This document shows, one piece after another, positions 16,933-63,417 of a stretch of 64,000 bases of DNA. Every line of letters begins with the position of its first letter. Within the stretch, counting starts at the first letter, position 1. Source of the DNA: Ulota crispa (lineage: Eukaryota; Streptophyta; Bryopsida; Orthotrichales; Orthotrichaceae); contig OY987242.1 of assembly GCA_963920765.1 (NCBI GenBank), forward strand, positions 31,086,002-31,150,001. The letters run 5' to 3'. A program made the position numbers and the translations under genes. The notes under the pieces are model-generated. The model searched no databases and was not told where the DNA came from. It saw nothing but the letters and a program-made list of their open reading frames with translations.

Positions 16933-17165
16933 TTAACCCTTGAACAACGAGAAGGCCCTTTGCGACTAGTACAATACAGGGTATTTTTCTTGTATTTGGA
17001 ATGGATCCACACCTCTACTACATTTGAGATCAACAAAGAGTTGGAGAATAAATCAATGCGGTTTTAATGAGCTTCTTTAAATCCAAAATTTAAAAAAATT
17101 GTTGGTAGCAAATGACAATTATACATTGACGTATATACTATGCCCTATCGTCATTCAAGGGTTAA
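16933..17165. mobile_element. TTAA-bounded short element (225 bp)
   Basis: The element 16937-17161 is flanked on both sides by TTAA (16933-16936 and 17162-17165). Its left end CCCTTGAACAACG and the inverse of its right end, CCCTTGAATGACG, agree at 11 of 13 positions. The interior is the reverse complement of the interior of 21505-21736 (shared segment GGAATGGATCCAC), so the two are one family in opposite orientation. It is non-coding. Confidence 0.7.
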
Positions 17166-19288
17166 CCCCTACTTGATCCAGTGGACGTATTTTGTCCCAA
17201 AAAAAACATTTTTGTACCAATATTGGAACTTGAGGTGAATTACATAATTGTTGCCACTTTTGGTTTGAATTTTTGCATGAGTGACAAGAAAAACTCAAAA
17301 TTCACATGAAAAGCTTGTGACCGTGCAACAAAATCTTTCGTGTGTTGTAGAGAGATATACCATACTATACAAAAACCCTACAACGAGTAGCGTATGTGTA
17401 TCCAAACAGAGATATTGATTAAGTTACTCAGTGATTAGGTGTTTTGGAAAAATGGTGGTTAGGCATGTTACTTTGTTATATGGTGTGCCCTTAACAAATT
17501 CATTCAAAATTGAGAAAATAATTTGGTACATCACTTTCTTGCATTTTGAGACCTTTCATGCACTGTATAGAGATTTTTGTTACTTGTACAATGATGTCCA
17601 AAAAACTTTATATTTCCCATACTGTGAATAAAAGACATTCTTGCTATAATAAAAATTTGCTTTAATTGGGGTTTTTGAGCATTGGATATAGACTTTTGTA
17701 ATCAAACTATACTTTATATCACACGAAGAAAAACGTATTGAGGACCACTCAGGGTTTGCTGACTAAGCTTTCCAAGTTTAAGTTATGAATGTATGTAAAT
17801 AAGTCTCATGCTAACAAAAAAAAATATGATCCTTACATTCATCTAATGCATATGTTACTAGATTGGTGTATTGATTATTTCTAGCATTTGCTTTGTGTAC
17901 AATACATCTTTAAATATTTTACAAGTATCCTAAACTTTGTGTACAATACATCTTCAAATATTTTACAAGTATCCTAAACTTATGGAATACAATTTTGTTT
18001 CTTTGAAAGAATAACTTATTTAACTCAAAAGTTTATACTTCAAAAAAACTTTTTAAAAAAAGTGAAAATACATGAAGGTAGTTTCATAAATACTAATAAG
18101 GAATATACGATTTTGAGAAAATTGTTTTTTCAAATAAATAAGACCTCTCTTGAATAGCCCGGATTCCACTAATGAATGGCAAGTTGAATTCCCCATTTGA
18201 AGTCCAGTTAGATCTCAATCCAACCATCTCGTTAATCTTTGTAAGAAAATCAATCTAAATACCTCGTTGAAACAGGAGGAATATTATGCTAAAGTCTTAT
18301 ACTTTACCATATTCATTCTTAAAGGAACACCATGATTGGAGTTTATAACTATAAATGCCAAGGAATAAGTCCTTGTAGAAACTGATAAATTTCACATCAC
18401 GACCAATTTTGAAAGGAATTTTAGATTGTTTGTTTTAAATTGTATTAATTATAGTTGGTGTGTAATGATGGATATAAATGTACTCATAATTTGTAAACAT
18501 AATCAAAAGCTTTTGTTGAGAATCTATCATTTTGACTATTATTTGAGACTGCACTTCATGATGTACTTTTAAATTTCCTTTAAATCTACAATATTTTGGG
18601 CCGTTGAGGAATTCAAGAAATTCCTAAAACTCACTCTTTTTAAATTGTAATCTAAAATGTTCAACTTTGGTGACTTTAATGAATGTTCATAATCTACTAC
18701 CGTATGTACACATGATCATCATCCATTAAATGGGTGCAAATAGTACTTATATGCAGATTTGCAATCTTTTTGAGCTATTTCATTCATATGTTTTGGATTT
18801 TGTCAACATTTCAATATAACAATAATTCTTTAAAGTTTATTATAACTATTATTGTTCATAATTGTTGTATATACATTTTAATTTGGAATCATGTCAAGAC
18901 AATTGTTTTTTAGATTACAATAACATATTGCAATCATTATGATCATTGCATGAATTCATACTCATCTAATTGTCAAAATGGAAAAAAAAGACATAAACTA
19001 GGGAATTGGAGAGCTTTTTTTGCACAAATTGAAACAACAACAAAAGAAAGGTGTGTAGCTAGTTGAGCAAAAACTTAACATTTTCCATTCATGACAATAG
19101 GAAAAGAACCATATTTGCACTTTTCTATCCAACTATTGCTCAATTGAATCCTTGCATGCATGATCATTCAATATTGTCATTTTAGATATAGAAAAATGAT
19201 TGTGACTTTAGTTGTTGTTACCAACTTTTTCAAAATTGCATTCAATATAGACAATTTTATTTCATGCATATCTATGTGTTGTGTATCC
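17166..19288. other. AT-rich intergenic with one small tandem duplication
   Basis: No gene is seen. At 17891-17978 a 44-bp unit (CTTTGTGTACAATACATCTT...) is present twice in direct tandem with a single difference. The rest is AT-rich sequence without family-like frames. Confidence 0.5.
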
Positions 19289-19591
19289 AAGCACTACAAG
19301 AAAAAGGGCCATTTTTGACTAAGGATTTTGACTACCAAAATAGTACAACAACTAAGACTATTTGACTAGTCCAATATCAAGCAAGTGGTTTAATTTATGA
19401 CTACATGTAGTCATAAATTAAACTAGTTATGACTACGTGTAGCCATAAATTAAATTATTCATGACTAATTAAATTATGTATGACTACATGTGGTCATATA
19501 CTCATATTGACTAGTCAATTAGTCTTAGCCAAGTTAGTCTTTTTTGTAGTCAAAATCCTTAATCAAAAATGACCTTTTTTTTGTAGTGAAG
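19289..19591. mobile_element. CACTA-type MITE with AAG target-site duplication
   Basis: The 297-bp element 19292-19588 begins CACTACAAGAAAAAGGGCC and ends with its inverse TTTTTTTTGTAGTG. A 3-bp direct repeat AAG flanks it at 19289-19291 and 19589-19591. CACTA ends with 3-bp duplications are diagnostic of the En/Spm superfamily. The interior contains subterminal repeats of the ATGACTACATGTAGTCAT type, as expected of transposase-binding subterminal regions. It is non-coding. Confidence 0.88.
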
Positions 19592-21500
19592 GTTGTGTGT
19601 ATTTGGAATGTTTTATACCTTTAACTATTTCAAGGTATAAATAAAGACTACTATAATATCCATCAAATCTTACAGTTTTAAGGACAATGATGATGAATGA
19701 CTCTATACAAAAGATTTATTTCTAACTACAAGGCCAATCATATGAACATTAATTTAAGATAGGTTGACCTATTACCCAACAAAACTTATAAGCAAACATT
19801 ACTATAAGTCAATGAGATTAATTGTTTTTAATAGAACTTACACAAATTCCCTCTCAACTAATTTGACATAAAAAAATGATGTACTAAATATTCCATACAA
19901 AAGTAATAAGAAGTCAAAGTTCAATTAGTAATTTTCCTAAATTCATGCCTTAATTTCTATCATTCCTAGCATTACACATTCTACAATGGATCTTGAACAC
20001 TTTGCAAAAATTGTGTATTTATCATTTAAATATACTAAACCACATACTTGGATCAATAATTGTCTTAATTTTTTAAACCAAAGATGTATTGATGGCAAAG
20101 CTAGGTTGTAGGTGAAACTAACATATGAAAATGTACTTAACATGCCAATAAACTAACACAGACTTAATTAGCATTGTATCATTGGTTAGCTTGTCAAATA
20201 TGAGATCATTCAATCTTTGTTACATTAATTATAGCAATAACTTATGTCAGTTTAAAACCTCCTCTTTTTTAATAAAAAGCAACACTGTATTAATCCCTAA
20301 AGTTATTTTGACTATGATTCACCAAAAAACACTTAGAATGAGTTGTTTTGATAACAAAGGTTTGGACAAAGGTAAAAAGAAAAATGTGAAATGAAGTCTT
20401 GATGCAATTTACTATAGGATCTAGTAGAAGAATATATATTTTTGCAATAGTAATAGGATGAAAGTTACATGGAGCATGGGTTGTGAGATTAAAAGGTTTG
20501 AAGTGAGAAACATACACTTTTCTTTGGGGCATCAAGTTTTGGGCAACTTCAATTTGGGGAGGTTTTTGCATTAGTTGATTTCACTTTTGCTTATACTCTT
20601 TTAAGCTAATGCTTTTGATAGAGCTAGCCATATGTCCAAAAACATTAATAACATTTTGAATTGGGGAACACATACTATAAAATTAGAATAGGAAACTAGC
20701 TTCAAGAAAATTCTCATACAAATTTTTTTTCAACAATATTTGGCTTCCACATAGAAGAATCTTTTTAAATTGTGATAATAGGAGCCTTATAGTTTAATTC
20801 ATTTCAAATGAAGGGGAAAAAAGGGAATTGACCAGAGATTGTGATTTTGACAAGCTTGATCAACATTGGGCCACATTTACCTAAGGTGAAGTAAAGGGCA
20901 ATAAGCAAAAGAGTTGCCTTAATGAAATGAGGTTGGGTCAAGGTTTGACAAGGAAATAACTATGCCTCTCAACCTTGGAGCAACATCCCAAAATTTCAGC
21001 TGTAATGTAAAAAAATGTGCCTGTCCTGCCCTTCAAACAAGTAGAAATAAGTTTTCTATCATAATTTTTTTTACAACAAATTAAAATGGTTTGAAAATTG
21101 TTGCATTGAAATTATAGTTCTACTAAACACATCCTCTAAATGTGTTGTGGAAATCAATTTATTATTGTATAAGTAATAACCTGCCTAAATTTGCTACGTT
21201 GCCAAAAATTGTTGTTTGGTCCTTATGGGTTAATGACACATGTTTTGCATCAATGATAGTCAAGCAAATAAATAACATGTGTTGTTGGACATCAAACACA
21301 CATTTCACAAAGGAACCAATGTCTGAAGTTCCTTGTAGGAAAAACTACCCTTACAAGTATGCGTTGCATGTGCTTCTCATAATGCCTCTTTTAATTTCAT
21401 GTGACTTTTCAGGTGATTTCACCCTCTCTTTCTCTCCGTTTAGTTCTTCTTCTCCCCTCCTTGAATTTCAGATTTTGGGTTACTGATAAACACCCAATGT
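19592..21500. other. AT-rich intergenic, no feature seen
   Basis: No gene, RNA or clear transposon terminus could be supported. Short open frames at 19943-20571 and 21142-21486 have no family resemblance. Confidence 0.4.
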
Positions 21501-21740
21501 TTAACCCTTAATCCTTAAATGTCCCATGGGCATAGTAGATACATTGCTATATATTTGGCATTTGCTGTCAACAATAAATTCTAACTTGGGATCTCAAATA
21601 GCCCATTAGAATTGTGTTTATCTATATTCCAGCTTCTTGGTTGATCTCAAATGTAGTAGATGCGTGGATCCATTCCAAATACAAGAAGAATACATCATAT
21701 TGTATTGCTTGTGGTGGTCGGTTGGTTGTGTATGGGTTAA
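21501..21740. mobile_element. TTAA-bounded short element (232 bp), relative of 16937-17161
   Basis: TTAA at 21501-21504 and 21737-21740 brackets 21505-21736. The interior is homologous in reverse orientation to 16937-17161: both carry TGTATTTGGAATGGATCCA-type sequence and a GTAGTAGATG/CATCTACTAC-type segment. Terminal inverted repeats are weak beyond the first bases (CCC ... GGG). Confidence 0.6.
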
Positions 21741-24700
21741 TACCTCAAGGAGGGCAGCACCGGTAGCAATAGAAAACTACATGCAAACAAATGATAGGGT
21801 GCCTAAAAAACAATTGAGATAGAATTTAGAATTTGTTTTTTAATACTACAGGGTACAAAAATGCCATGACATGTCTTCAAACTATTGTAGAGTATAGAAA
21901 AATAGGTCTAATTAGAAAAAAAATTAGACCCAGGATACCCTCCTTTTTATTCTTTTTTTTTGCCAAATGTATTAAATGATGTTGCCTTGTGAGTGGCATA
22001 TTCAAGTATTCAATAATTTTATACCCTCCTAGTAAATGAGTATCATTGATAATTTTTAGTGAAGATACAATAGTAGAATTGAGTACACTTTTCTCTTAAA
22101 TTCTAGTTGTAAGTAGTCATTAATGGGAGAAAAAAAGTTGAAAGGAATTTAATGTAGGACAGAAATTGTAATAGACTTTTTTTAATCTAAATTACCGTAT
22201 CATTTATTCATATCAGTTTAGAATTATAAGTAATGCAAGCCCCTTCTCTAGTAGTCCAAAGTAGAAAATCATAAAACTATAGTGTTTTTAAAATAAATAA
22301 ATAAAAACTAATACCCGCTTAAAAAATCCTTGATGTTTGCACTTATTCCCTTATTTTTTGTACACACCAACCCCTAAGGTTAATACCTAATACTTTATAA
22401 TAAAACTTACAATAAAGAGTTTAGAAAAAAATCCAATGACATTTTACCCTCTCTTTAGGCCCTTTTCCTCTGCCTTCTTCATCTCTAATACAAATTGTGG
22501 TGTTCATAGAGAATTATATCAACTAACACTTGAGGCAACATAGATGTAGGTGGGATCTCATTTATAGCTATTGAGTGACTTTATGTTTGAATTGTTGTCC
22601 TTGAATTATGTAATTTGGAAGGCTTAAAATGAAAGAAACATTCTCTTTTTATTTGATTTGGATGAGTACAATTAGGCATATTATGGGAGGTGGTCATGCA
22701 ACAAAATGGTTAGGATGTGGCTCTTACGTTGGATTTCTGTTGGGGTTACTTCCAAACTTGAGCAATGTCCCACAACACAAAAACCTCCATAAAGTGTAGC
22801 CATGCATGTATTTCTAGTTGAATCAATACTTGGAACTTGGGACATATTGTTAGGCTATAATTTAGCGCCCTCCACCAATCATGTTCTTCGGTTACATTAA
22901 AACTTAGAACTACTAGCATATTTAACCAAATTTGAATTATTCATGCAACTTTGGTCTATTTTTGCAAAATATAATGAATTATTTTAGTGTTGAAGTGTGT
23001 GAACTCCTTGATGTTGATATTTAGTTTAAATCTCTTAAGTATTTTGCATAATCTCTATGTGCTTTGCAGAGATCTCCCAATTTTTGCATGTGTCTTCAGC
23101 TTTCCTTTTCTGGACGATTGATTATAAATTATGAACAGTATAAAATTAGTTTAAAAATTGATTATCAACATTAACCCCTAAAGGATGTTGCTGTTTTGTA
23201 TACAGACTTCCAAGTTGTATATGGATGGGGTATTTGGATAGCACATGAACCCCATTGGAGTTGTAAGTTTCAAGTCAAGTCATAGACATACTACTTGTTA
23301 ACTAGGATTTTTTGGGGAATTTTTAACATTTGTCATATAGTAATTTCTTTAAGTACTAGATGGTTCTTGTACAAATACAAACAACACTTTTGGCAAGCAA
23401 CCTCCTTTACGAATTAACGGAGATTTTTCAGCTTCAACCACTAAATTTGAACTTTTCTTGGTTTCCTTGGGGTTTTCTCATGTGCACGCACATGATATTT
23501 CCTATCTATATCTATAAAAGAATCCCAAGACCCCATTTTGGATGAAAAGTAAAGAGTTTGAGTGGAACTATGAGTTGCATTCCATGCATGTAAGTTGCAC
23601 CTTTTACATTTTCTTTATGTAACAAGTTGCACTTTTTACGTATTCTATTGTTGCACCTTTTACATTTTTTATTTAATGCCCCATTGGCACAACGGATACA
23701 TAAACTAGTGCTTACATAATAGATGTGTTACTGTATTATTTTTAGAAAATTTTCCCTTTTTTTTAATAGTTTTAAATTTTGTTTGGTTTTTTTGCCATTC
23801 TAATTGGCTGGCTTTGTATTGACCAATCTATCCCGATGATTGCCTAGGCATAGTGTGAAAGCATAGATCCCAATATTTCCAACTCTGCAACCAATCAAAT
23901 TCTAAGACTTCAACAAGACTTAGGACATGGTAATGGACCGCCTTCTAGGATGAAAATATCTTTCAACAATATTTTGCCAAAATGTATTACATTTTTTTTG
24001 GGAGAATATTAGGTTGTAGTGGAAACTATAATTGAACATGCTCCACAGTCTTAAGATGATATTGCTTTTCTTTGGATAAACATGAATTGCTATATTTAAA
24101 CAAAAAGATGTTTTATATCCGTGTTTTACATATGGCATCCATGTTCACAAATGTGAATTGCTTTGTCACTCTATGAAAAAACAATTACATTGCAAAAATT
24201 ATATGTATACGTTGAAGGTTGGTTTTGGAGGGAACTCAAATAAAACCATGGACACTTCTTGCCTAGGGGTGTTTTTTAATCCCTTTCAAACCATCCTTCA
24301 CCCAACAAAAAGACATGACAAAAACATTCTTGTGTTCCCATCAACGTTCCCAGACGTTCCTATGTAAAAGTGCCACTGCAAGAGGGATTTTTTTTTTTAT
24401 ATCTTTGAAAAACCCTGGCATCTCCACTTGTCCTGCAAAATAGTATGTTAGGAACACATTTGGATGGTAAGAGAGTAATTATTACTTGAACCCATCAAAA
24501 GATTCTCCCTTGCATTGAAAAATTTGCATTTTTCAATGCACAGCAATTCCTTTAAACACTACTTTTCTTTGATCAAATAAAAAGTTATGTAAACAATGAT
24601 GAAAAATCTCTACTTTTTTCAAACAAGAAGGCTTTTATTGATTGAACACTACTCCTGGTGAGGGAATTACATTTGAACACTGGAAACAAGAGACGGTGTT

Positions 24701-25937: not shown

Positions 25938-26484
25938 TTAACCCCTAAACACCCAAGAGGTTTGGATAAAACATAAATGCGTTATAAAATGATATTTTTG
26001 TAACTTCAATGAATTTTGTTTCAAAAGAGAAAACAATAATCATGATGTTTAATAATTATCCACACGGTCAAACATCCAAAAAAAGTTTTGGACTCTTTTT
26101 TAATGTGTTTAGAAGCATTTATCATTTAATATTCATCAAAATTACAAATTTTATTCATAGAATTTGAAATTTGAAATTTGGCATGATTGGTTAAAAATGA
26201 ACATTCTATTCTAAAACCCAAAAATGTAATATTTTTGAAGGAGGGAATATCATTAGTTTCCCAAAATAGAAAATTTACAACATTAGCAAATATTGAAGTG
26301 TTTATCTTTTGAAAATTTCTTCTTGGTGGAGTTTAACTTGGATTGACACGATTCAAATTGGTTTGGAAAGTAGACTTGCTTTTTTATTCATTTTTTTTTT
26401 CAAAAAATGTTTTTTTCTTGTCTTAAGCAATTTGCAAAAAAGGGCAGCAACCATACAATGGTGGATTGGGCGTTTAGGGGTTAA
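25938..26484. mobile_element. TTAA-bounded element (539 bp)
   Basis: The element 25942-26480 lies between TTAA at 25938-25941 and TTAA at 26481-26484. The left end CCCCTAAACACCC and the inverse of the right end, CCCCTAAACGCCC, differ at one of 13 positions. It is AT-rich and non-coding. Confidence 0.75.
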
Positions 26485-26649
26485 GAGATTTGAAAGATCA
26501 TTTGGTTCTTGCTCAAGTCTTTAATTGATTTTTCCTAGGGTTGTTTTTGTTATTGTGATTAGCATGCACGCTTGGCCACTTTGTTTGCTTCTAGTTTAGT
26601 AACTATTGGACTGTCCTATTGTACCACGACCTAAACTGTTGGTTAAGGG

Positions 26650-26899
26650 TTAACCCTTGAGTGCCCCATGACCTCAAAATGGGGCGCTCAGAAATGAAAA
26701 AGTTCTTGTTTGACTTATTATAATTTTTCTATTGGTACGGTCAAACCATTTGTCCTTTTCCATATACTTTGGAGCTTGTCTCACCTACCATTCAATACAG
26801 TTAGATTTTGTGGATCTTGCTTGAGATGACAATTTGGTTGGACTGAATGTGAGTGGGTTTAGATTTTGATGAATTATGGGCTGAGCGCTCAAGGGTTAA
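26650..26899. mobile_element. TTAA-bounded short element (242 bp)
   Basis: The element 26654-26895 is flanked by TTAA at 26650-26653 and 26896-26899. The left terminus is CCCTTGAGTGCCC and the inverse of the right terminus is CCCTTGAGCGCTC. An internal GGGGCGCTCA lies near the left end. It is non-coding and of the same size class as the elements at 16937, 21505 and 33604. Confidence 0.78.
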
Positions 26900-27892: not shown

Positions 27893-29540
27893 ATAGTACA
27901 GTACCCAAAAGAAAAAGTACATAGCACCCTTTTATGGCATCCAAAGAAGTATGTATAACTATGTATAACAAAGAATATAACTAATATTTCATTCTCACAT
28001 TTTTAATGTGCTATCCTCATGCAATCTTGATCAAGCATATCAAATCTCAGGTACTAAAACCCAAAATCCTATTTTTGGTAAGTGGTTTTGTGTCAAAATC
28101 ATGGTTTTACAAGAAAGTTGATTAATAAATAGTGGTGATGAATTATTGAGATTTGATTGCATGGATATGTAGGAGACATCCATACTCACATCTTCCTTTC
28201 AAACAAACATTTCCAAAAAAATCCATATTCCTCCTACACAGATTTTAATGTCAGAGTGATTATGACCAAATTTAGTGAAATACATATTTCTTCATGGAAA
28301 TTAGTTTTTGGCAAAAAAATACATCATCATGTTTAACCCAGGAATGCCAAGGGCGCCACTCATAGGCACTTGAACTAATGAGAAACCATTTTTCATCCAT
28401 ATTTTGTTGATGTTGGGTTATGAGGAGTTGTTGCTGATCTATCATGTTGGGTTATGAGGAGTTTTCAATTGAATTTGTAGTTTTGTTAGTGTTTCTCTTT
28501 ATGTAATTGAGAAGTTAGTAAAAAAAATGGATCACAAAATATGATATAATAGTGTATTTTGGGAAGTTTTTGCTCCTTGATTTAGATCTAAAATTTCTCC
28601 ACAAAAATGATATTTTTTGAATTTGAGCCCAACTAACAAAATGAAGGACATCTACTCTAGTTTTTACTCCGATTTGAATTTTGGAAAATTTCCTAATATT
28701 GAATGTCTTATTGCAATTTTAACTTTAAATATATTTTCAATGTTTATTATTTTCTAAGTATAAAATGACACGGAAATTGAGTTTACACCATGATGTTTGT
28801 CATTGTAATACACACACATGGTGAAATTTTCAGATTTTTTGAAATGATTTTCTATTTGATGTGATTTTTCTTCACTTTTTCTTCAAAAATTCTCAAAAAA
28901 AACAAAATTGCACAAATTAATTCTATTTTTATTGTGAAGTATAGAAAACATATAGTTTCATCCCTGAAAAATAAAAATAAACTTTTTCATTCAAATCTAG
29001 TTGCCAAATGACAACAAATTAAGTGATAAGCACTAAAGATGAAAAGCAGTGGTCATAGGTCCATCACTTTGGGGTTAAAGGTACAAATTGAATCACATGT
29101 ATGAGTCAAATAACAAAAACTGATTTTCAAGACAAAATATGTAATTTACTAAATTTGGTCATGATCACCCTAACATTAAAATCTCTATAGAGGGAGTTTT
29201 GATTTTTTTTGGAAATGCTTGTTTGAAAGGAAGATGTGAGTATGGATGTCTCCTACATATCCATGCAATCAAATCTCAATAATTCATCACCACTATTTAT
29301 TAATCAACTTTCTTGTAAAACCATGATTTTGACACAAAACCACTTACCAAAAATAGGATTTTGGGTTTTAGTACCTGAGATTTGATATGCTTGATCAAGA
29401 TTGCATGAGGATAGCACATTAAAAATGTGAGAATGAAATATTAGTTATATTCTTTGTTATACATAGTTATACATACTTCTTTGGATGCCATAAAAGGGTG
29501 TTATATACTCTTTCTTTTGGGTACTGTATAGTACCCCTCA
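27893..29540. repeat. Foldback unit 1 of a five-unit tandem array
   Basis: The left arm (about 27893-28245) and the right arm (about 29205-29540) are inverted copies of about 330 bp with only a handful of mismatches away from the tips. The unit ends in GTACTGTATAGTACCCCTCA (29521-29540). Homology between the arms continues inward, interrupted by a separate TTAA-bounded insertion at 28337-29074. Transcription through it would give a long hairpin RNA. It is non-coding. Confidence 0.8.
28333..29078. mobile_element. TTAA-bounded insertion inside foldback unit 1 (738 bp)
   Basis: TTAA at 28333-28336 and 29075-29078 brackets 28337-29074, which starts CCCAGGAATGCCA and ends CATCACTTTGGGG. Its left flank (ATCATCATGT) and right flank (AGGTACAAA) are continuous in foldback unit 4. 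There the reverse complement of about 31801-31830 reads ATCATCATGTTTAAAGGTAC with a single TTAA. That is an empty site, so this is a real insertion that duplicated TTAA. Confidence 0.85.
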
Positions 29541-30431
29541 ATAAGTCTATGTTCAGACTTATTTTGCATTTCAAAGATGTTTGTAAGAAACAAAGTTTAA
29601 TTTGGATTTTTTGTCTTTTCATTATGGTGTTGTAACACTTACACAATTTCAATTAAGCATATCAAATTTTAGTTCCAAAAATCAAAAGTCCATTTTTGGT
29701 GAATTGTTTTGTATTAAAATTCATGATTTGACATGAAATTTGATTGAAGAAAATTGGCAATGGATTTTTGAGGTTTAATTGCATAAATATGTAAGGAAGA
29801 TCCATGTGCACCTTTTATGTTAAAACAAATAGCATTTAGTAAAAAAACATGGTTTACAAAGAAATCAATGCAAAAGCAATGTGGGATGTGGTAAGACCAA
29901 AATTTATAAAATAGATGTTTCTTTATGAAAATTATCTTTGGCTATTTGACTCATACACCATGATTACATTTGTACTTTTGATTATGAAAATATGTTTACT
30001 TAGCCAAAAGCTAGTTTAAAAATAAAGATATCTATTTGACAAATTTTGATCCTACCACATCCCACATTGATTTTGCATTGATTTCTTTGTAGATCATCTT
30101 TTTGTTACTAAAAGCTGTTTGTTTTAACATGAAAGGTGCACATGGATCTTCCTTACATATCCATGCAATCAAATCTCAAAAATTCATCACCAATTTTCTT
30201 CAATCAAATTTCACATCAAACCATGAATTTTAATAGAAAACAATTCTCCAAAAATGGACTTTTGATTTTTTGGAACTGAAATTTGATATGCTTGCTTAAA
30301 ATTGCATAAGAGTTACAAAACCATAACAAAAAGAAACAAATCCAAATTGTACTATGTTTTTTACAAACTGCTTTGAACTGCAAAATAAATCCGAACGTAG
30401 ATTTACTGAGGGGTACTATATAGTGCCCTCC
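29541..30431. repeat. Foldback unit 2 of the tandem array
   Basis: The left arm (about 29560-29860) pairs with the right arm (about 30115-30410). Mirrored words include AAGGTGCACATGGATCTTCC against its inverse around 29800. The unit terminates with TGAGGGGTACTATATAGTGC at about 30408. Arms are more diverged than in unit 1. It has no TTAA insertion in its spacer. Confidence 0.75.
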
Positions 30432-31372
30432 AAAAAGTCCTCAAGCACCTGTTTTGCCATTCAAAGAAATTTGGCAATGTGAAGTATAATTGGGATTTTG
30501 TTGTTTTAATTCATAAAATTTTAATTTTTATGCAATCCCAATCAAGTATACCAAATTTCAACTCCTCAAAATCAAAACCTCCTTTTTGGTGAATTATCTT
30601 GTATTAAATTCATGATTTTACATGATAATTGATTGAAAAATAATGGTAATGAGTTTTTGAGATTTAATTGCATGGATATGTAAGAAACACTCATACGCAT
30701 AGCTTCTATGCTGAAAAGAACCCCCTTAAGTAACAGAAATTTGATTTATAATTTTTTTCATGTGATTTGTAATATGTCCAATTATTGTAAAATAGATTTT
30801 TCTATGATGATCATTTTTTATTGTTTGATTCACACAATGTGACTAAGTTTGTACCTTTGAACATGGTGTTATGTTTACTTGATGAAAAGGTAGTTAAAAT
30901 TTTAAAATATATATTTTACAAAAATTGGGCATATTACAAGCATAGATAACAAATGTTGTGTTGTCCTCGTGAGATTGAGGTACATTTGGAGGGAAGGTCT
31001 TTCATGGGCCAAAACATGTCAGAGGTGGCAACCAAAACAAAAGGCTGATTTTAAGTCAAATTTAAAGAATTGTATATCAAAATTTTGTTGGGGTTATTTT
31101 CAGCATATATAGAAGCTATGCGTATGAGTGTTACAAACATATCCATGCAATTAAATCTCAAAAACTCATCACCATTATTTTCAATCAATTACCATGTAAA
31201 ACCATGAATTTTATACAAGATAATTCATCAAAAATGAGCTTTTGGTTTTGAGGAATTGAAATTTGGTATACTTGATTGGGATTGCATAAGAATGAAATTT
31301 CTATGAATTAAAACAATAAAATCCCAATTATATTCCATATTGACAAATTGAGGACTTGTTGGACGACATTGT
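30432..31372. repeat. Foldback unit 3 of the tandem array
   Basis: The left arm (about 30440-30720) and right arm (about 31090-31370) are inverted copies. Both carry the ATAGCTTCTAT/ATAGAAGCTAT core words and the TTTTGAGATTTAATTGCATGG-type segment seen in all units. The spacer differs in content from that of the other units. It is non-coding. Confidence 0.72.
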
Positions 31373-31937
31373 ACAATACCAGAAAGAAAGAGTTCATAAG
31401 TTCCTCTTATGGGATTCAAAGAAGTTTGTGCAATAAATAATAAAATTGACATTTTATTCTCACATTTTTTGTATGTGATCCTCATGCAATCCCGGTCAAG
31501 CATAACAAATTTGAGCTATTAAATATCAAAATCTTATTTTTGGTAAATTATTTTGTATCAAAATCATGATTTTACAAGAAAGTTGATTAAAAACATTGGT
31601 GATGAATTTTTGAGATTTGATTGTATGGATATGTAGGAGACATCCATATCCACATCTTTCTTTCAAACAAATATTTCCAAAAAGTTTCAAAATTCCTTCT
31701 ATAGAGATTTTAATGCTAGGGTGAATATGACCAAATTTAGCAAAATACATATTTCTTCATGAAAATTAGTTTTTTGTTATTTGGCTCACACATTGTGATT
31801 AATTTTGTACCTTTAAACATGATGATATGTTTATTTTGCCAAAAACTAATTTATTTATAGTACAAACTTCTTTGAATCCCATAAGAGGGACTTATGTAAA
31901 CTTACTCTTTCTTTAGGGTAATGTACAGTACCCCTCA
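31373..31937. repeat. Foldback unit 4 of the tandem array, right arm truncated
   Basis: The left arm resembles unit 1 most closely, with GGAGACATCCATA and GATTTGATTGTATGGATATG. The right arm keeps only the terminal part (about 31855-31937) ending GTACAGTACCCCTCA, so an internal deletion removed most of it. Its spacer carries the single-TTAA empty site matching the insertion in unit 1. Confidence 0.72.
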
Positions 31938-32862
31938 ATTATGTTTATGTTTGGCAGGGTTTTGCCATTCAATGAACTTGCAAATACTAGATTATAATTT
32001 GTGTTTTCTTGCCTTGCATTATTGTTTTGTAGTTCTTATGCAATTCCAATCAAGCATACAAAATTTTAGTTCCAAAAAATCAAAACCCTATTTTTGGTAA
32101 ATTGTTTTGTATTAAAATCATGGTTTTACATAGAAATTGATTGGAAAAAATTGTTGATGAGTTTTAAAGATTTGATTGCGTGGCTATGTGGGAAACATCC
32201 ATATGCACCTTTTTGTGTTGAAACAAATACCAATGGCAATAATAAGGTCTAAAAAGAAATTTGCTTGAAATCAATGTGGGGGTATGGTAGGACCAATATT
32301 TGTAAATTAGATATTTCTAATTTTTAACTAGCTTTTGGCTAAGTGAACATGTTGTCATGCTCAAAGGTACAAATTTAGTCATATTGTATGCGTCAAATAG
32401 CAAAATATGATTATATTGAAGACATGTCTAATTTACAAATTTTGGTCTTACCAAACCCTCACATTGATTTCATGTAAATTTCTTTTTAGACCATATTATT
32501 GTCACTTAATGGTATTTGTTTCAACACAGAAAGGTGCATATGGTTGTTTCCTACATAGTCATGCAATCAAGTCTCTAAAATTCATCAACAATTTTTTTCA
32601 ATCATTTTTAATGTAAAACCATGATTTTAATACAAAACAATTTACCAAAAATAGGGTTTTAATTTTTTGAAACTAAAATTTGGTGTGCTTAATTGGAATT
32701 TCATAAGAATTACAAAATTATAATGCAAGGCAAGAAAACACAAATTATAATCTAATTTATGCAATTATAATCTAATTTATGCAATTATAATCTAATTTAT
32801 GCAAGTTCATTGAATGACAAAACATTGCCGAACGTAAACATACTGAGGGGTACTATACAGTC
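31938..32862. repeat. Foldback unit 5 of the tandem array
   Basis: The left arm (about 31945-32230) pairs with the right arm (about 32510-32850), and the unit ends TGAGGGGTACTATACAGT. Within the right arm a 20-bp unit (ATTATAATCTAATTTATGCA) is repeated three times at about 32743-32802, absent from the left arm. That dates this small expansion after the inverted duplication. Confidence 0.75.
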
Positions 32863-33599: not shown

Positions 33600-33843
33600 T
33601 TAACCCCTAAGCGCCCCATAGACATATGTCTATCAAAAAGCTAGGTCAATGCAATTTGACCAACATAATCTCATTGCTCCTTCCATGAAACTACCTCCAA
33701 TTGAGCCCAACTCAAATGAGATGCTTTCCATTAACAATTCATATGGTCAATTCTTGTGGATTGTATTTTACAGTCTACATGGGCACTTTGATTGCAAGCA
33801 GGTCACACATTTTAGGTTCAAAGACTAGGCACTCAGGGGCTAA
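33600..33843. mobile_element. TTAA-bounded short element (236 bp)
   Basis: The element 33604-33839 starts CCCCTAAGCGCCCC and ends GGCACTCAGGGG (inverse CCCCTGAGTGCC). The left flank is TTAA (33600-33603) and the right flank is CTAA, a one-base variant. It is non-coding and 57 bp from the next element of the same kind. Confidence 0.72.
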
Positions 33844-33896: not shown

Positions 33897-34546
33897 TTAA
33901 CCCCTAAATACCCAAGGCCTTTCTGAACTTTTTGGCATTTTCAAGAAAGTGACCAATCAACCAACCTTTTCATAAATCTCATTAAGGTTTTTTAAACTGT
34001 AACCGTACAAATTTAAACTTGACATGTTTGATTACATGGAAAAAGAAAACACAACAATATCACTTATAGTTTGAAAGATTATAACGTTTGAACATGAGAG
34101 TGTTAAAACGGCAAAAGTGACTTGGAGTTTTCTAATCCTCATTTCATATGAAAAATCTAAAAAGTTGGTCATCAAAAACATATGAGGTTTAAGGTCATTA
34201 CATGTTTAATTTTAGTCAATTTACACCTTTCAAAATCTACTCTTGTATTTTTTTTAAATGGATTTCTAATGCGGATTTTTCTCCAAGCTCTAGCGTATTT
34301 GAGGCTCATTTTCAAGGTCTTCCAACACTAGAAAACTCAAGATTGCAGTGGACACCCTTGTACAAAATCTTGAGTAGAAAATTATCAATGTTCATTTTTT
34401 AAATCAGATTTTTGATGTTGAAAACAAACTTCAAAACAAACTTGTATTCAAAAGAAAATACTAAAAGTGAAGATTTGATAAAGTTTTATTCATCTTCAAA
34501 GTTTTGTAAAAACCCAAATTGAATGCCTTGGACATTTAGGGGTTAA
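33897..34546. mobile_element. TTAA-bounded element (642 bp)
   Basis: The element 33901-34542 is bracketed by TTAA at 33897-33900 and 34543-34546. The left end CCCCTAAATACCC and the inverse of the right end, CCCCTAAATGTCC, agree at 11 of 13 positions. It is AT-rich and non-coding. Confidence 0.75.
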
Positions 34547-36889: not shown

Positions 36890-37507
36890 AGGGAATTGAT
36901 ATTTGTACCACACCTTTTTGATTATTTTACCACATCTACTATATATGGCCAATATTTATGATATTGTAGTAAGTGTGGATCACAAGTGGAACATCACTAA
37001 TTTGAAAATATAAGTTGATATAGAAGCTACAATTTTAGTTATGTTTTTCAATTCAAGAGCTTGCTTGTAGTATTGATTAAAGTTTTCAAATTAAACTTAA
37101 TTTATATATTTTAACTGATACTATGAGTGGGTTTGGAGTTGAAAAACATAACTAAAATTACAACTTTGATTACAAGGAAACAATATCTGAATTAACAAGA
37201 CCAAATTGACCAAACTTGTCCAAATTGACCAAACTTGTCCAAATTGACCACATTTGTCCAAATTGACTACATCTCTCCAAATTGATAGAAAATGTCCAAA
37301 TTGACAAAAAAATATCCAAATTGACGTGTCCAAACCAACAAAAATGACCAAATTGACAACTTTCCCTTATAGTATATGTCAACCTATACTTTCAAAGTAG
37401 TGATTTTTTGCTCCTAGTTCCCACTTATTATAATACCATAAATATTGGCCACATATAGTAGGTGTGGTAAAATAACCAAAAGGGCATGATACAAATATCA
37501 ATTCACT
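36890..37507. mobile_element. Foldback element copy A, with internal minisatellite
   Basis: The ends GGGAATTGATATTTGTACCAC and the inverse at about 37490-37507 are paired, and the arms also share ATATATGGCCAATATTTA-type sequence and the GAAAATATAAGTTGATATAGAAG segment. The right arm is interrupted by a minisatellite at 37200-37362. The same family occurs at 37617-38024 and 54096-54486. The outer flanks (CACTAAGGG, CACTACAAGGG) hint at CACTA-like tips. Confidence 0.7.
37200..37362. repeat. Minisatellite, unit about 19-20 bp
   Basis: About eight copies of an imperfect AACTTGTCCAAATTGACC unit are arranged in tandem inside the right arm of the foldback element. It is absent from the related copies at 37617-38024 and 54096-54486, so it expanded within this copy. 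Confidence 0.85.
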
Positions 37508-38024: not shown

Positions 38025-38031
38025 TTTATAA

Positions 38032-51555: not shown

Positions 51556-52504
51556 TTAACCCGTAAAGGACCATTGTCACTTTTTGGGACAAGATGGACT
51601 TCAGGCATGTACCTATGGTTAAATTATTTCATGTGATTCTTTGAATATTTTATTGAAGGTGGGGAATTCAAAGATTTGTGTGGACATCTAATTATTCTTC
51701 ATTCTGACATTTGATGAAGAAGTTATGTATGAATTTATGAAAATTTGGGGAGGACTGCCCATCCAGATAGCCCAACAACTTCTTTAAAACTTGTATTTTT
51801 TTTAAATAAAATTTTGAAATTGATTCTTTAGATTTTTTATAAGTGAGAAGCTTTGAATCATTCAATTTGAATCAATGAGATGAAAGTTATGAGGAGTTTT
51901 TGTTTGCAGGTAGTTATGGATTCTCTACTCTAAAATAAACTTTGAAGTCCTCTATTTTACTCAATTTTCAATATTTTGGAAAAAAATTTGAACCAAAGGA
52001 AGTAGATTGTTTGTTGCAACATTACAACCGTTGGGATTTGCATTTTTCATTTCAATTGTTAAATTCTTAATAATTCAGTGTTTTGACTCATTGTCTACCT
52101 CTTTATACTTACTATTTTTTCTCATGTGTTGTGTAGTTCCAATTGATTTGAAAATTCTCCCACACATGCCTAACTTGATCTCCTACATGGGAAAGTTAAA
52201 GCGCAACTTTGGGTAGAGCAAATCTTTTGTTATAAGAGAGGTCAAAGGCTTTTGAAATTTTTGGATAGCATGGAATTTTTTTTTTTTTTTTTTTTTTTTC
52301 TACTTTAGATGTAAATATCTCACTCCTTTCCATCTGGAATGAGCTAATTTTTTTCTCACAAGTACCTCTTCTAGTCTGAGACAAGATCCTACAGTTGGGT
52401 TTCCCAAAAACAAAATATAAAATCCCTTTTAACTAAAAACCTCCTAGAAGTGGCAGTTTTTAGTGATTTTCACTGAAAAAAGGGCTTGGTCCTTTAGGGG
52501 TTAA
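51556..52504. mobile_element. TTAA-bounded long element (941 bp)
   Basis: The element 51560-52500 is flanked by TTAA at 51556-51559 and 52501-52504. The left end CCCGTAAAGGACC and the inverse of the right end, CCCCTAAAGGACC, differ at a single position. A 26-T run lies at 52276-52301. The interior is homologous in reverse orientation to the elements at 52672 and 63222 (a CCTACAGTTGG / CCAACCGTAGG-type segment). It is non-coding. Confidence 0.8.
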
Positions 52505-52667: not shown

Positions 52668-53584
52668 TTAACTCCTAAAATTCTTTTGTATTTAGAGGCC
52701 CAAAATTGCTTCAAAATACTAGTCCCCAAACCAGGGTCAAAATCTTCATTAAAACTTATTTTTTAACAAATCCAACCGTAGGATCCTTTGGTTGACTTGC
52801 ACAAGTACATTGTTCCAAAATTTCAAAATGAACATCCCCACCAATTGCAAGATCAATGTGCCTAAACTTCAAAATGTAGGTTTTTCTAGTCCTTCCAAAA
52901 GGTGAAGTTTTGATTTTCAAAAATTTTAGAAAAAAACACATATGTTGTATTTCTTGTGCAATTTTTGCAATATGTAGGAAAAGGGGTTGAAAGCATATAT
53001 AAAAAAATTTAACCAAAAAAAAAAATGGATTCATTTTTACAAAAATTGTAAAGTGAAAGGTATTGATGAATGAAAGATATAACTAATATGCTAATAAGTT
53101 TTGGAAGAATTTGAAAATTGTTAATCCCAATGGTGAAAATGCTCTAACAGACAATTCATAACTTTAATTTTCATTTTCATTTGTAATTTTTCAAAATTGA
53201 GAGTAAAAGACAACTTTATATGTTTTTTCTACCCTCTTCCTACCTTCATTGCCCGCAAAAGAAAACTTCTTGTAACTCTTACCTCATTATTTGGAATTAA
53301 GTGATTCAATTTTTTTGAGTAGGTCTCAATCTATACAATTCTATAAAAAAATTTAAAAAAATAGAATATATGTTTTGCTGCCTGATTTGACATTGAAATT
53401 GAAAAAACCTTATAACTTTTGCAATACTTATCCGAATGACATGAAATAAAGCTTCACATGTAGATTATGATGAGTAGCATCCATCCTAAAAATTTCATGG
53501 AAAAGTTCCAAATTATGAAGTTAATAGAGCCTGCCCGAATTCTCATAAAGCCCAAAGTGGGTTCCTTGGGCCTTTAGGGGTTAA
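52668..53584. mobile_element. TTAA-bounded long element (909 bp)
   Basis: The element 52672-53580 is flanked by TTAA at 52668-52671 and 53581-53584. The right end is GGGCCTTTAGGGG. The left end CTCCTAAAATTC has decayed from the shared pattern. A segment near 52765-52808 (CCGTAGGATC ... CTTGCACAAGTAC) matches one near 63308-63345. It is non-coding and 164 bases from the preceding element of the same family. Confidence 0.7.
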
Positions 53585-55325: not shown

Positions 55326-55349
55326 ATTCCACGCCGAGCAGCAGCATTG

Positions 55350-55640
55350 CTTGTACAGGTTTTTAGGGTTTGGGGGACTCCGGTTTTGCTTCAGAATATC
55401 ATATCGAGCAGGAACGCATCCTGTTCTCGGGCTTGTACAAGTTTTTAGGGTTTGGTGGACTCCGCTTTTCCTTTTAAAATTTCATATCGAGCAGGAACGC
55501 ATCTGTTCTCGAGCTTGTACAAGTTATTAGGGTTTGGTGGACTCCGCTTTTTCCTTTAGAGTTTCATATCGAGCAGGAACGCATCTTTATTTGGGCTTGT
55601 ACAAGTTTTTAGGGTTTGGTAGACACAGTAAGATTTAGTA
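55350..55640 (+). repeat. 82-bp tandem repeat between BLOC1S2 and HARBI1-like ORF
   Basis: The word CTTGTACA starts at 55350, 55432, 55514 and 55596, an exact 82-base period, giving about three and a half copies. Each unit contains TTAGGGTTTGG, then a GACTCCGCTTTT-type stretch and CATATCGAGCAGGAACGCAT. It therefore delivers four telo-box-like motifs into the 3' region of BLOC1S2 and the presumed promoter or leader of the next ORF. Confidence 0.9.
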
Positions 55641-55718: not shown

Positions 55719-56996
55719 ATGCAGCAATGGAGGCAACAGCTGAAGCGGCAGCTAGAGGAGGGACTACAAGACGACGACTGCGAGGAGATGATGCTGGGCT
55801 TCATGCTAGCGCAAACCAGCGACATGCCAGTGAAGAAGCACGGCGGATCACGACCAGGGCGAGCAGCCAACCAGGAGCGCCAACGTGAAGTCGGCCACAA
55901 CCGTCTCTTCGCAGATTACTTCAGCGCCACACCCGTGCACGACGACAACGCCTTCCGACGGCGATACCGCATGAGACGAGGCTTGTTCCTGCGCATTCTC
56001 GAGGCAGTCTGCGCACGCGATCCTTACTTCGTCCAAAGACGCGACGCCGCGGGCGTGCTCGGCTTATCCTCAATCCAAAAGTGCACAGCCGCGTTGCGAA
56101 TGCTCGTCTACGGCGCCGCAGCGGACGCCACCGACGAGTACTGTCGACTCGGCGAGAGCACGGCGTTCGAAGCCATGAAACGCTTCGTCAAATGCGTCCG
56201 TAGCTCGTTTGAATCCACGTACCTCCGTCAGCCTCGCAAGGAAGACATTCGCAAGCAAATGGACGTGAACCAAACCCGAGGCTTCCCGGGAATGTTTGCC
56301 TCCATTGACTGCATGCACTGGCGATGGAAGAACTGCCCTGCCGCATGGCGAGGCAGCCTTGAAGACGAGGAGAAGAACCGGAGCTTCATCTTTGAAGCTA
56401 TCGTCGATCAATCTCTCTGGATCTGGCATGCTTTTATCGGACTCCCTCGAGATAAACACGACGTCAACTTACTCGACCGATCTCCCATCGTGTCGGACAT
56501 GCTCAAAGGCGACATTGACGAAGAATTAGGGTTTCTGTTAAACGGCAACTCGTATCCGGAATACTATCTCCTTGCAGATGAGATCTACCCTGCTTGGAGT
56601 TGCTTTGTGCAGACCATTGAAGAGCCGCAGGATGAGATGGAGCTTCACTTTGTGGAGAAGCATGAGGAAGCTCGACAGGACGTGGAGAAGTGTTTTGGTG
56701 TGTTGCAGGCTAGGTTTGCTATCATTCAAAACCCTTGCAGGCAGTGGCACATGGACACCGTGTCTGATATTATGCGAGCTTGTGTGATTATGCATAATAT
56801 GATCATTGAAGATGAGGCTGGGTGTGATTTAGAGGTGTTGTTTCAGCATGGGACTGCTACGCAGATGATGCGTGGGTTGACGTTTGAGGATTATACTGAG
56901 GGGACTGAGGAGTTCGAGAACCCGGAGGCTCAGTATGCTCTCCGTGCTGACTTGATTGAGCATCTCTGGAGCTTGAGAAGCTCTGATTTGTATTGA
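55719..56996 (+). CDS. HARBI1/ALP1-like DDE nuclease-family protein
   Basis: A single uninterrupted 425-residue frame. It matches plant HARBI1/ALP1-like proteins of the PIF/Harbinger transposase family: MRRGLFLRILEAV (helical start), then GFPGMFASIDCMHWRWKNCP with the first catalytic Asp, LWIWHAFIGLP, DVNLLDRSPI, YYLLADEIYPAW with the second Asp, and QDVEKCFGVLQARFAIIQNP with the catalytic Glu. The usual ADGIYP reads ADEIYP. The N-terminus has a basic RPGRAANQERQR stretch. Composition is GC-rich like the neighbouring host genes, and I see no terminal inverted repeats. In plants such proteins can be active transposases or domesticated factors (ALP1 acts with Polycomb complexes). The start was chosen as the first ATG giving full domain coverage. 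An AATAAAA lies about 14 bases after the stop. Confidence 0.9.
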   Translation: MQQWRQQLKRQLEEGLQDDDCEEMMLGFMLAQTSDMPVKKHGGSRPGRAANQERQREVGHNRLFADYFSATPVHDDNAFRRRYRMRRGLFLRILEAVCARDPYFVQRRDAAGVLGLSSIQKCTAALRMLVYGAAADATDEYCRLGESTAFEAMKRFVKCVRSSFESTYLRQPRKEDIRKQMDVNQTRGFPGMFASIDCMHWRWKNCPAAWRGSLEDEEKNRSFIFEAIVDQSLWIWHAFIGLPRDKHDVNLLDRSPIVSDMLKGDIDEELGFLLNGNSYPEYYLLADEIYPAWSCFVQTIEEPQDEMELHFVEKHEEARQDVEKCFGVLQARFAIIQNPCRQWHMDTVSDIMRACVIMHNMIIEDEAGCDLEVLFQHGTATQMMRGLTFEDYTEGTEEFENPEAQYALRADLIEHLWSLRSSDLY

Positions 56997-59489: not shown

Positions 59490-59765
59490 TCTAGTCATTA
59501 AAATTGCCCACCTTCTCAAACGTTCCCTTGTTGTACATGTTTTTTTTCATGGGTTTTCAAAATGTACAAGTGGTGTACATTTGAGGAGGTGGGCAGTTTT
59601 AGAGACTTTTGGTCTTTCCACTTCAAAATTTCATAACTAATTCCACAAAAGTTCCAAAAAATATGAAATAACTTGGGTTAGATGTCAATTCTTCTTATCT
59701 TTCAAGGAAAATTTACTAAAAAATAGTTCAAGAAGTTTCACATCTCCAAAATTCAGTTTCAGCGC
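59490..59765. repeat. Repeat homologous to 38374-38704
   Basis: Same-strand homology to the short element upstream of ACC, sharing GTGTACATTTGAGGAGGTG, TTTCCACTTCAAA, CATAACTAATT and CAAAAAATATGAAA words in order. Its right end is interrupted by a Tourist-like insertion at 59769. Confidence 0.65.
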
Positions 59766-60274: not shown

Positions 60275-61143
60275 GGTTAGTGTATAACAAATTGAAAATT
60301 TAAATTTAAAGCATAATCACAGTCACAAAAATCAATGATTTGGTCAGTTTATACATGGCTTGACATTAATCTACAAGCCACAATTGGATCTACCAATCAC
60401 AATGTCATTAACATGATGAACCAGCTGTACGCAAATGGATAAACCCTTACGCTTCCAAAAACTTGCAAAGCAAGTGTAAATGGTGACATGACAAGTTATG
60501 TTTATTAATTAGTTACAAAGGAAATATCCAATAGCATGCTTTGACGGCGGTTTATGAGTGCATTGTAGGTTTCAGACCAAGATATTTTTGTATTTTATGT
60601 TGACATCCACAAGAGCCTGTGTCACACCAAACACAAGCACTTTTCGTAAACAAACATTTTCTAAAATACTTATTAATTAAAGTAGCATCTATTTGAAGCT
60701 CCATGCTCACTACTGTGCAAAAAGTCCCTTTGAAATAAGGTGGCCCAATTGTTTCATCAACGCAACATTCACCTTTATTTGTTTATTTATTTTGGGTTTT
60801 CTTAATTTTGCTTTATTTTTCAAACTTACATTACATCTTTGCAATGCCTTAGCGGCACTTGAATTTTTTTGTTTTTTGTTTCTATAAAACTTTAACTACG
60901 TGATACTGCTCAATTGACGTACTCAAGATTTGTGATATCCATACAATCACTTATTTGAAATGAAACAATTTAGGATATCAACTTTGATAGAGATAGATGT
61001 TTTAGTTGATGAAAATTAACATACCCAAAAATTTGAAATCGTGTAAGCAACTTTACTAAAATGTGACATGTCCAGCATTAAAATGCCATATTGATTCGTT
61101 TAGACCTGAAATAAACAACCTAAAAGCCGAAAACTTCACACAC
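60275..61143. other. AT-rich intergenic, no feature seen
   Basis: No gene, RNA or convincing transposon terminus was identified here. Confidence 0.4.
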
Positions 61144-62232
61144 TTAACCCCTGAGCGCCCGGAGTGAAAACGAGAAAATGGGGCTAGGAGGGAGGAGGGA
61201 CCAGGGATCATGGTCAAAAACATTGTACATCCCAAGTTGGGAATTTAGATTGGGGAGGATTCACTGCTGAAATAGCAAAATGGGTGCTTGATGCACCCGT
61301 CCAAAAATTTGTAAAATTTTTGATCATACCATTTTGTAAATTATAATAGTCAAAGTATAGTTGACTATGTGGCAACTAGCCAATTTGGGGGGGGGGGGTT
61401 TGTGGCTTTGAACACAAAATTCATGCCTTGGAGGAGGCTTTTTAAAAAAAAAATTAGGCATGGGGTGCAATTTATTGGTATCTTGCTAGTTGCCAAATTT
61501 GATGATATTCCAACATCCGCAAGGTGCTTTTTTATATGCCCAAAGTTGCAAGGCTCATATGGCATGGTGGACAATAGACGAGGTACGGGTATAGCTTTGA
61601 CCTCCACAAGGACATGGCTTTCAATGGTACAGCTGCAAAACCCTTCTCCAATTTGAGGCATGCGTGCCAAAACACCCTTAACAATATGAAACACGCCATA
61701 GTTGATGGTCTCTATCCTTGCACCTAAACCTTAAACAATATGAAATGAAGTTCTAGCGTAGTTTTATTTTTATAATAGAATACAATCAATTAGTTGGATA
61801 GTTACAAAGCTCACACACTCCAAGAAGATAAAATGGTGGCTATGTCTAGGGGATGGGGTATATATGGGATAGAGGGTGGCCGCAGGAGAAGGAGGAGCAT
61901 TGCCCCAAGAAGATTAAATGGCGGTTATGTTTGCGGTGGTCATCCTCAAGGATGAGGTATACATGGGGATAGGGGTGGCTGTATTGTAAGGAGATAGCCT
62001 TTTGCCAGAACGGCAAGTGCACGGATCCACTAGTATTGTCATACTTGACTTGCACAATTTGTGCTTGTACAAGTGGTGAAACCCCCATTGCCCACTATGT
62101 GGCATGAGAGTAGTACCATACCCTTAACTAAGTGCAATTTTCTAGGCGGTACATTACTCATTTGGACCAGATTCTAGAGAAAATAAAATTTTGAGGGGCG
62201 ACAATATTGTCCCTAGGGCGCTAAAGGGTTAA
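61144..62232. mobile_element. TTAA-bounded long element (1081 bp)
   Basis: The element 61148-62228 is flanked by TTAA at 61144-61147 and 62229-62232. The left end CCCCTGAGCGCCC and the inverse of the right end, CCCTTTAGCGCCC, agree at 10 of 13 positions. It contains a run of eleven G at about 61387-61397. No convincing reading frame lies inside, so it appears non-autonomous. Confidence 0.78.
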
Positions 62233-62313
62233 GCAAACCACTCATCATGATAATCTTAGCATCATGATAATCTTAGTAGTTGTGCTAATAAAAACCATGT
62301 TATTCCATGTTGT

Positions 62314-63217
62314 TTAACCCTTTACAGACCACCAAACCATATTTTGGTTCAGAAGAGTAGTTTTTGGCCTTTACAATAAAATCACTCAACAATTTGGAAA
62401 CTGATCTTGAAGAACGCTTGTGACCACAAGAATTTTGCATCCAACCCAAAAAACAACAATAGATTTGGATATGGGAGTTGATAAATAACGATGTTTATAC
62501 ATCATGTCCTCAAAATACGTATCCATACTTGGTCAAAGATGGATCAAAGCAATAGCACAATACATCAAACATCCAAAAAGTATGCCACATTTCAATTGTG
62601 CAATCTTTAAAAAATTCAAATTGCTCAAGGAATACGCTTGTGTTGTTTCTCTATACGATAGTAGTACAATTGTAGTATTTGAGAATTCATTGAAATGATA
62701 CTATCATTTTATTTTTTTTAAAATTCATCCTACATTTAAGGGCAATTCTTGATTGCTTTTCACCAATCGGATTTTCCATAACAATTATCAAATTTCTTGT
62801 AGAACCGTTTTAGGGTAGCAAAGAAAATGAAATGTTTGACCCATTATGTCCACTTAGCTACACCTTGTGATTGCTATTTTTGTCTATTTTGTGTGAAACT
62901 AGTCTTGTTGGAAAGGTAGGAAACCTTGCTCTCTAGAATTGTAAGGCTTTTCTCAATCAAAGCTTGGATGAAGCATTAACATTCAAAACCACACAAGCAT
63001 GAAAAACTAGAGATTTTCCATATACGGCTCACTCAATCGTTATAATATTTCACCTCCAACGACAGATCTAGCTGAAATTTTGACACATTACAATGAACAG
63101 GGTGTCCTTCACACTTGTACGATTGGATTATTCAAATTGGGTCCATATTTGATTCAAATGCACATCTAACTTCATTGCTCTAGTTTCTAGTGGATATTGG
63201 GAAAATGTGTGTGGTCT
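62314..63217. mobile_element. TTAA-type left terminus, right end not found
   Basis: TTAA (62314-62317) is followed by CCCTTTACAGACCACC, a terminus of the same class as the other TTAA elements. No inverse end is clear before the next terminus at 63218; a degraded right end near 63211 (GTGGTC) is possible. The interior is AT-rich and non-coding. Confidence 0.45.
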
Positions 63218-63417
63218 TTAACCCCAAAACTACCAAGGCCATTTTTGCCAACCACTCAAAATTGCCCCTATTGCTGCATTCACTCAAAATTTCAACAAAA
63301 TGCTATTCTTGAAAATCTAACCATAGGATCTTGTAATGCACTTGTAGAAGAAGAAGTGGTAAAAAGTTTGTGACATTTGACCGTACAGATTGAAAGTTAT
63401 GAGCATTTGAAGGGAAA

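Follow-up and report, generated by a model that had tools for sequence, protein, structure and literature searches.

Transposons of the piggyBac superfamily are recognized by TTAA target sites and by ends of 12-19 bp that start with CC[C/T]T (PMC2872659). The superfamily has a wide distribution in animals, fungi and protists but occurs only occasionally in plants, with annotations also in red algae (PMC12732532). The repeat table of the fern Ceratopteris lists 1,230 PiggyBac elements with 122 kb in total (PMC6890710), and that of Stipa a single piggyBac entry of 75 bp (PMC8319324). In this study, we examined a stretch of 64 kb (here called the window) in the genome of Ulota crispa. It extends from 31.09 to 31.15 Mb on a contig of 41.4 Mb (assembly, 274.8 Mb) and harbors a number of TTAA-flanked, non-autonomous elements of piggyBac type. 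An initial annotation had called the superfamily rarely described from land plants; this fits the distribution given in PMC12732532, although PMC10140906, PMC8086355 and PMC10794571 name plants among the hosts, without detail in the passages concerned. A full-text literature search, with subscription papers and Repbase outside its scope, returned no description of native piggyBac miniature inverted-repeat transposable elements (MITEs) of a land plant among the titles and abstract openings listed, and we do not claim that none exists.

Eleven such elements were identified in the window, amounting to 6,017 bp or 9.4% of it (Table 1). With a probability of about 0.96, we regard them as non-autonomous members of the piggyBac superfamily, i.e., as miniature or internally deleted copies that depend on piggyBac transposases encoded at other places in the genome for movement in trans. 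The sequences show TTAA duplication and CCC...GGG inverted ends, many copies are dispersed over the genome, and longer relatives with ends of this kind encode a transposase; deletion derivatives that keep both ends of such a relative were observed outside the window. TTAA immediately precedes all twelve positions listed by the initial annotation. Its ten elements were recovered as well, nine with TTAA at both borders and one (33604-33839) with TTAA/CTAA; a left end placed at 21505 had to be moved by 7 bp to 21512, and the element at 23175-23413 had been missed. The corrected border was set by the homologue at 16937 through alignment to TTAA followed by TCCTTAAATG, and the similarity between 16937-17161 and 21512-21736 (z = 51 against shuffles) ends at TTAA on both sides. 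The elements 51560-52500 and 52672-53580 are inversely oriented and diverged (z = 15 against shuffles); at position 52672, the left end agrees poorly with the terminal motif (score of -3.7 when its own element was left out) and is placed mainly by co-linear homology with 51560. Orphan ends were found at 17166, 21229, 26649, 62318 and 63222, and for the first four of these no partner was found.

The termini are closely tied to TTAA. A position matrix was built from the element ends and scored at each palindromic tetramer in the window using thresholds of 4, 6 and 8 bits. A score of at least 6 was reached by 22 of 786 TTAA-flanked ends versus 0 to 4 at each of the 15 other palindromic tetramers, with AATT as runner-up (4 of 1,498). 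When the element in question was left out of the matrix, 19 of 20 ends still scored at least 5.9. Longer motif versions gave cleaner results. In scans of the window with four of them, TTAA adjoined 7 of 11 matches to CCCYTRANNNCC, 14 of 33 to CCCYTRARNGCCC and 9 of 13 to CCCCTAAANGCCC (the latter two with up to 2 mismatches), and all 7 matches to CCCCTAAANGCCCAAGG with up to 3 mismatches. Eight pairs of terminal inverted repeats (TIRs) were detected, two of which link ends of different elements, compared to a mean of 0.02 and a maximum of 1 in 100 Markov shuffles. Most ends start with CC[C/T]T, the exceptions being CCCA, CCCG, CTCC, TCCT or TTCG. Genome-wide, the 16-base terminus CCCCTAAANGCCCAAG occurs in 5,334 exact copies, of which 4,484 (84%) are preceded by TTAA, and its reversed control does not occur at all.

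Some element ends abut at one shared TTAA (AGGGGTTAACCCC), as seen in the window at 17157-17170 (17161/17166) and 26645-26660 (26649/26654) and among loci fetched from the genome (designated L) at L011, L024, L038, L063, L076 and L078. Such pairs look as if one element had inserted into the flanking TTAA of another. Some abutment is to be expected, since a high-scoring end already adjoins about 22 of the window's 393 TTAAs.

Genome copies were searched for seven of the elements (16937, 51560, 33901, 33604, 28337, 25942 and 61148). Each yielded at least about 40 scored places from 247 to 9,627 first-look candidates. The scored copies are mostly co-terminal with the window copy for the first six and fall into two blocks for 61148, whose family is about 0.8 kb long because about 270 bp of the window copy (61761-62030) are unmatched in the 39 other scored copies. 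No clear ends and no target duplication were found for this extra stretch, which may have been gained in 61148-62228 or lost from the other copies. Of 30 loci sampled for the 16937 family, all were full length and 26 had TTAA on both sides; for the 51560 family, 28 of 30 were full length, 25 of these with TTAA on both sides, and the two partial copies were set aside. In both families, homology between sampled copies ends at TTAA, and the flanks beyond it are unrelated on average (identity of about 0.27, reaching 0.80 in single pairs). The sampled copies share 83-95% mutual identity and differ by about 7% from the family majority. At least one copy lies within a host gene, since a member of the 642-bp family (C9:1528750-1529398) sits between two dynein exon matches. 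The genome contains 16 dynein heavy-chain matches, 14 of which exceed the curated cut-off; to our knowledge, flowering plants lack dynein heavy chains. Together with the plant genes, these matches point to a host that is probably a bryophyte or some other plant with motile sperm.

Empty sites give the state of the target before insertion. When the flanks of 28337-29074 were joined minus one TTAA, they aligned to the paralogue at 31611-31852, which holds a single TTAA, and no gap fell at the junction. In addition, for 51 further copies that belong to two families and have TTAA at both borders, the joined flanks were searched for junction-spanning matches. Fourteen of these insertions gave 39 matches (some rows overlap or repeat one place, two loci lying in the window, and L063/L011 is an abutting pair and not an empty site). 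The junction reads TTAA in 24 and is changed or gapped in 15 (TTGA four times, CTAA and CCAA twice each, seven others once each); a second adjacent TTAA was found in none of the 39 matches examined. These paralogues show the pre-insertion state and not excision. They also bear on the idea that TTAA is part of the repeat itself, for instance through TA duplication within a longer palindromic end. As a palindrome, TTAA makes its left and right copies resemble inverted ends as well as direct repeats, and under TA duplication with a fixed T and A, filled and empty sites would read alike. Because the uninterrupted paralogues carry TTAA once, however, the site existed before insertion. The sequences alone do not dispose of a duplication of TA only; this version is set aside because the enzyme is of piggyBac type. 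We consider the chance that TTAA belongs to the repeat to be almost negligible and read it as the target duplication of piggyBac-type elements.

A profile search with PF13843 (piggyBac DDE transposase), in which 116 of 528 candidates were scored and one gene may match in pieces, returned 120 matches in the U. crispa genome (best E value, 1.3e-73), compared to none in any of 14 control genomes. Ten of these rows are free of stops, e.g., L071 (C4:3591922), C8:19570986-19572215 and L079 (C1:1180709-1181995), and could represent recent or domesticated copies. Two transposases match PDB 6x67 (E = 4.1e-20), which we take to be T. ni piggyBac, and 9c0f, piggyBat (E = 1.7e-16). Transposase places were fetched with flanks of 1.5 kb (L001 to L008) or with longer flanks (L069 to L072). 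TTAA ends are paired around the transposase in L069 (5,019 bp, ends CCCCTCATCGCC/CCCTTCATTGCC), L070 (5,094 bp, CCCTTGACCGCC/CCCTTCACCGCC) and L072 (5,738 bp, CCCCTAAATGCCTAAGG/CCCCTAAATGCCTAAAG), all with interrupted frames; L071 has a right end only, and among L001 to L008 a fitting TTAA end was present only in L001 and L006. The L072 end CCCCTAAATGCCTAAGG is one base away from the commonest MITE end among the termini listed. A 405-bp stretch of L072 matches its own reverse complement, so the size of this element is perhaps swollen by nested inserts. Strict patterns for the conserved aspartate motifs, which we take to be those named DE, DN and GVDxxDQ, were scanned in 11 loci at 10 places. 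All three are present in L003 and L004/L072 and two in L005, L006 and L008, while the third pattern is unmatched in L001, L002, L007 and L079, the last of which reads GIDVVDQ there. As L069 to L072 share no mutual nucleotide similarity at an E value of 1e-5, several diverged lineages are present.

The encoded enzyme also bears on whether another TTAA-specific superfamily, Kolobok or Sola2/Sola3, has converged on CCC ends; some Sola groups do prefer TTAA. Kolobok likewise duplicates TTAA, but its termini are of the form 5'-RR...YY-3' (PMC9587614), whereas the window ends read CCC...GGG. Sola copies appear in a fern genome table (PMC6890710), yet the longer elements with the ends described here carry PF13843, a piggyBac family, which makes convergence by either group very improbable in our view. 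For elements of the L072 type, Kolobok and Sola were refuted by the encoded piggyBac transposase.

The piggyBac assignment is further linked to non-autonomous copies by derivatives of L072. Its first 534 bp have at least 39 other scored copies in the genome, five of which were fetched with flanks (L074 to L078). Four of the five (L075 to L078) keep both L072 ends, are 900-925 bp long with TTAA on both sides, and match L072 over the first 550-580 bp at 85-88% and over the last 110-130 bp at 72-78%; L074 matches the left end only. Since both ends are shared, L075 to L078 derive from a piggyBac element by internal deletion. Each of their eight ends starts with CCCCTAAATGCCCAAG, a motif present by the thousand. 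The longer members with a piggyBac-family transposase (L069, L070 and L072), the genome-wide termini next to TTAA, and copies that end at TTAA with mostly unrelated flanks and single-TTAA empty sites are what the initial annotation had proposed to look for, and its piggyBac reading, based on TTAA duplication and CCC ends, is borne out by PF13843 relatives with the same kind of ends.

Several observations weigh against this assignment. Window elements and the four transposase-bearing loci share only ends of 13-16 bp and not the interior, and for this reason the assignment of the window elements rests on their ends and TTAA. Six-frame Pfam analysis of the window at 15.7-35.4 kb and 51.4-64 kb revealed no piggyBac transposase, nor does any listed genome PF13843 match fall within the window. 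When every position of either strand is counted, the matrix gives a score of at least 6 to 134 sites, of which only 22 adjoin TTAA; the motif alone is not specific, and the motif together with TTAA is. Similarly, a crude CCC or CTC start follows TTAA 32 times at 393 TTAAs versus 31 times at 749 AATTs, only about twice the AATT rate, and CCC is not universal in piggyBac, as many bee elements start with CAC (PMC10140906). Paired ends were found at only three flanked transposase places, partly since flanks of 1.5 kb are too short, and L071, with an open frame of 476 amino acids, carries N in place of the third conserved aspartate. In-frame stops occur in 110 of the 120 PF13843 match rows. No very recent copies were seen among the sampled ones, which were chosen by similarity to the window copy, so that younger copies may exist elsewhere. 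Because of the stops and the divergence from the family majority, activity in this lineage, which the initial annotation had offered as one of two possibilities, is supported for the past only.

Table 1. Coordinates of TTAA-flanked elements, single ends and an empty-site paralogue in the U. crispa window
Feature	Position	Strand	Details
piggyBac-type MITE	16937..17161	+	225 bp; TTAA both sides; at least 39 other scored genome places
MITE, same family as 16937	21512..21736	-	225 bp; inverted copy
Further TTAA-flanked element	23175..23413	+	239 bp; 12 of 16 first end bases match; right end degenerate
MITE	25942..26480	+	539 bp; TTAA both sides; TIR CCCCTAAACRCCCAA; identity of scored copies in the genome, 81-84%
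MITE	26654..26895	+	242 bp; TTAA both sides; TIR CCCTTGAGYGC
MITE	28337..29074	+	738 bp; TTAA both sides; within loop of long inverted repeat 27897-29528
Empty-site paralogue of flanks of 28337-29074	31611..31852	-	Uninterrupted; one TTAA
MITE	33604..33839	+	236 bp; TTAA left, CTAA right; TIR CCCCTRAGYGCC
MITE	33901..34542	+	642 bp; TTAA both sides; TIR CCCCTAAATRYCCAAGG; identity of scored copies in the genome, 90-92%
MITE	51560..52500	+	941 bp; TTAA both sides; downstream of acetyl-CoA carboxylase carboxyl-transferase open reading frame
Diverged relative of 51560	52672..53580	-	909 bp; TTAA both sides; poorly fitting left end
TTAA-flanked element	61148..62228	+	1,081 bp; includes about 270 bp (about 61761-62030) unmatched in other scored copies
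Orphan left end	62318..62340	+	TTAA CCCTTTACAGACC; partner looked for, none found
Left end, element probably continuing beyond window edge	63222..64000	+	

Besides these elements, the window contains an acetyl-CoA carboxylase carboxyl-transferase open reading frame (ORF), genes for plant-type DUF3475/DUF668 proteins, a Harbinger transposase and a BLOC1_2 exon. Six-frame Pfam analysis of the transposon-rich parts returned the Harbinger ORF, the BLOC1_2 exon and two sub-threshold chance matches (E = 0.13 and 0.086), and an Rfam scan of the window gave nothing at gathering scores. Long inverted-repeat (foldback) elements whose arms are related form a cluster at 27897-32764; the first has arms of 325 nucleotides with 99% complementarity, and its ends, TACAGTACCC, suggest a TA-type (Tc1/mariner-like) family. 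Short tandem arrays were observed at 40402-40610 (19-nucleotide period, near the acetyl-CoA carboxylase region) and at 37182-37324 (CCAAATTGAC-type units), and an 82-bp unit is present in four tandem copies at 55347-55624, just upstream of the Harbinger ORF and near the BLOC1_2 exon.

The Harbinger ORF itself (55719-56996) is open over 425 amino acids, and element ends were not found for it. A transposase of this kind (Plant_tran, E = 2.4e-76) might have mobilized the elements described here if these were Tourist-like MITEs of the PIF/Harbinger type. The Harbinger target duplication is the 3-bp TWA, however, whereas the target site here is TTAA and stands singly in empty sites. No good inverted ends, whether like those of the MITEs or of another kind, turned up around the ORF, and TTAA-CCC ends belong to PF13843-bearing elements. 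It is thus exceedingly unlikely that Harbinger accounts for the MITEs, and mobilization by piggyBac transposases remains our reading.

By the mechanism known for the superfamily, the transposase would bind the element ends, cut at the TTAA/CCC border and join the element into a new TTAA, which would thereby be duplicated. Copies would have built up during earlier bursts, and decay would since have affected most of the transposase genes. The superfamily is known and the host unusual, and the data document past and not current activity. With thousands of piggyBac-type ends and more than 100 transposase matches in a land-plant genome, the superfamily evidently can proliferate in plants, which raises the question of ancient inheritance versus horizontal transfer. 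One tentative scenario, to which we give somewhat less than even odds, is a long, multi-lineage piggyBac radiation in this spore-bearing lineage, certainly with thousands of termini and perhaps with unusually large transposase-bearing elements (5.0-5.7 kb); native piggyBac would then have been a major transposon in part of the early land plants, with loss explaining why it is scarce in other plants, or else there was repeated horizontal entry. Such elements could in time provide a widely used genome-engineering tool with a relative adapted to plants.

Compared to known systems, the window elements most resemble the CMITEs of the coral Acropora as described in PMC2872659. Both duplicate TTAA, have ends of about 13 bp that start with CCC and lack coding capacity, and both come with transposase-bearing relatives in the same genome that have the same kind of ends, and with loci seen with and without the element; the TIR given there for a coral element is identical to the window end at 62228 in 12 of 13 positions. 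In contrast to the CMITEs, which measure about 96-108 bp, the window elements are 225-941 bp long, with one of 1,081 bp, and their host is a land plant. The transposase-bearing elements are 5.0-5.7 kb long here (three measured, possibly swollen by nested inserts) versus 2.2-3.7 kb in the coral (PMC2872659). Like piggyBac (PDB 6x67) and piggyBat (PDB 9c0f), the U. crispa transposases belong to the same family by sequence, with DE, DN and GVDxxDQ in some copies; unlike these two, most copies are interrupted, and the relationship is distant (E = 3e-13 to 4e-20). Finally, the Ceratopteris entry (PMC6890710) is a table line without structure, whereas for U. crispa we describe the ends and empty sites together with the transposase and deletion derivatives.

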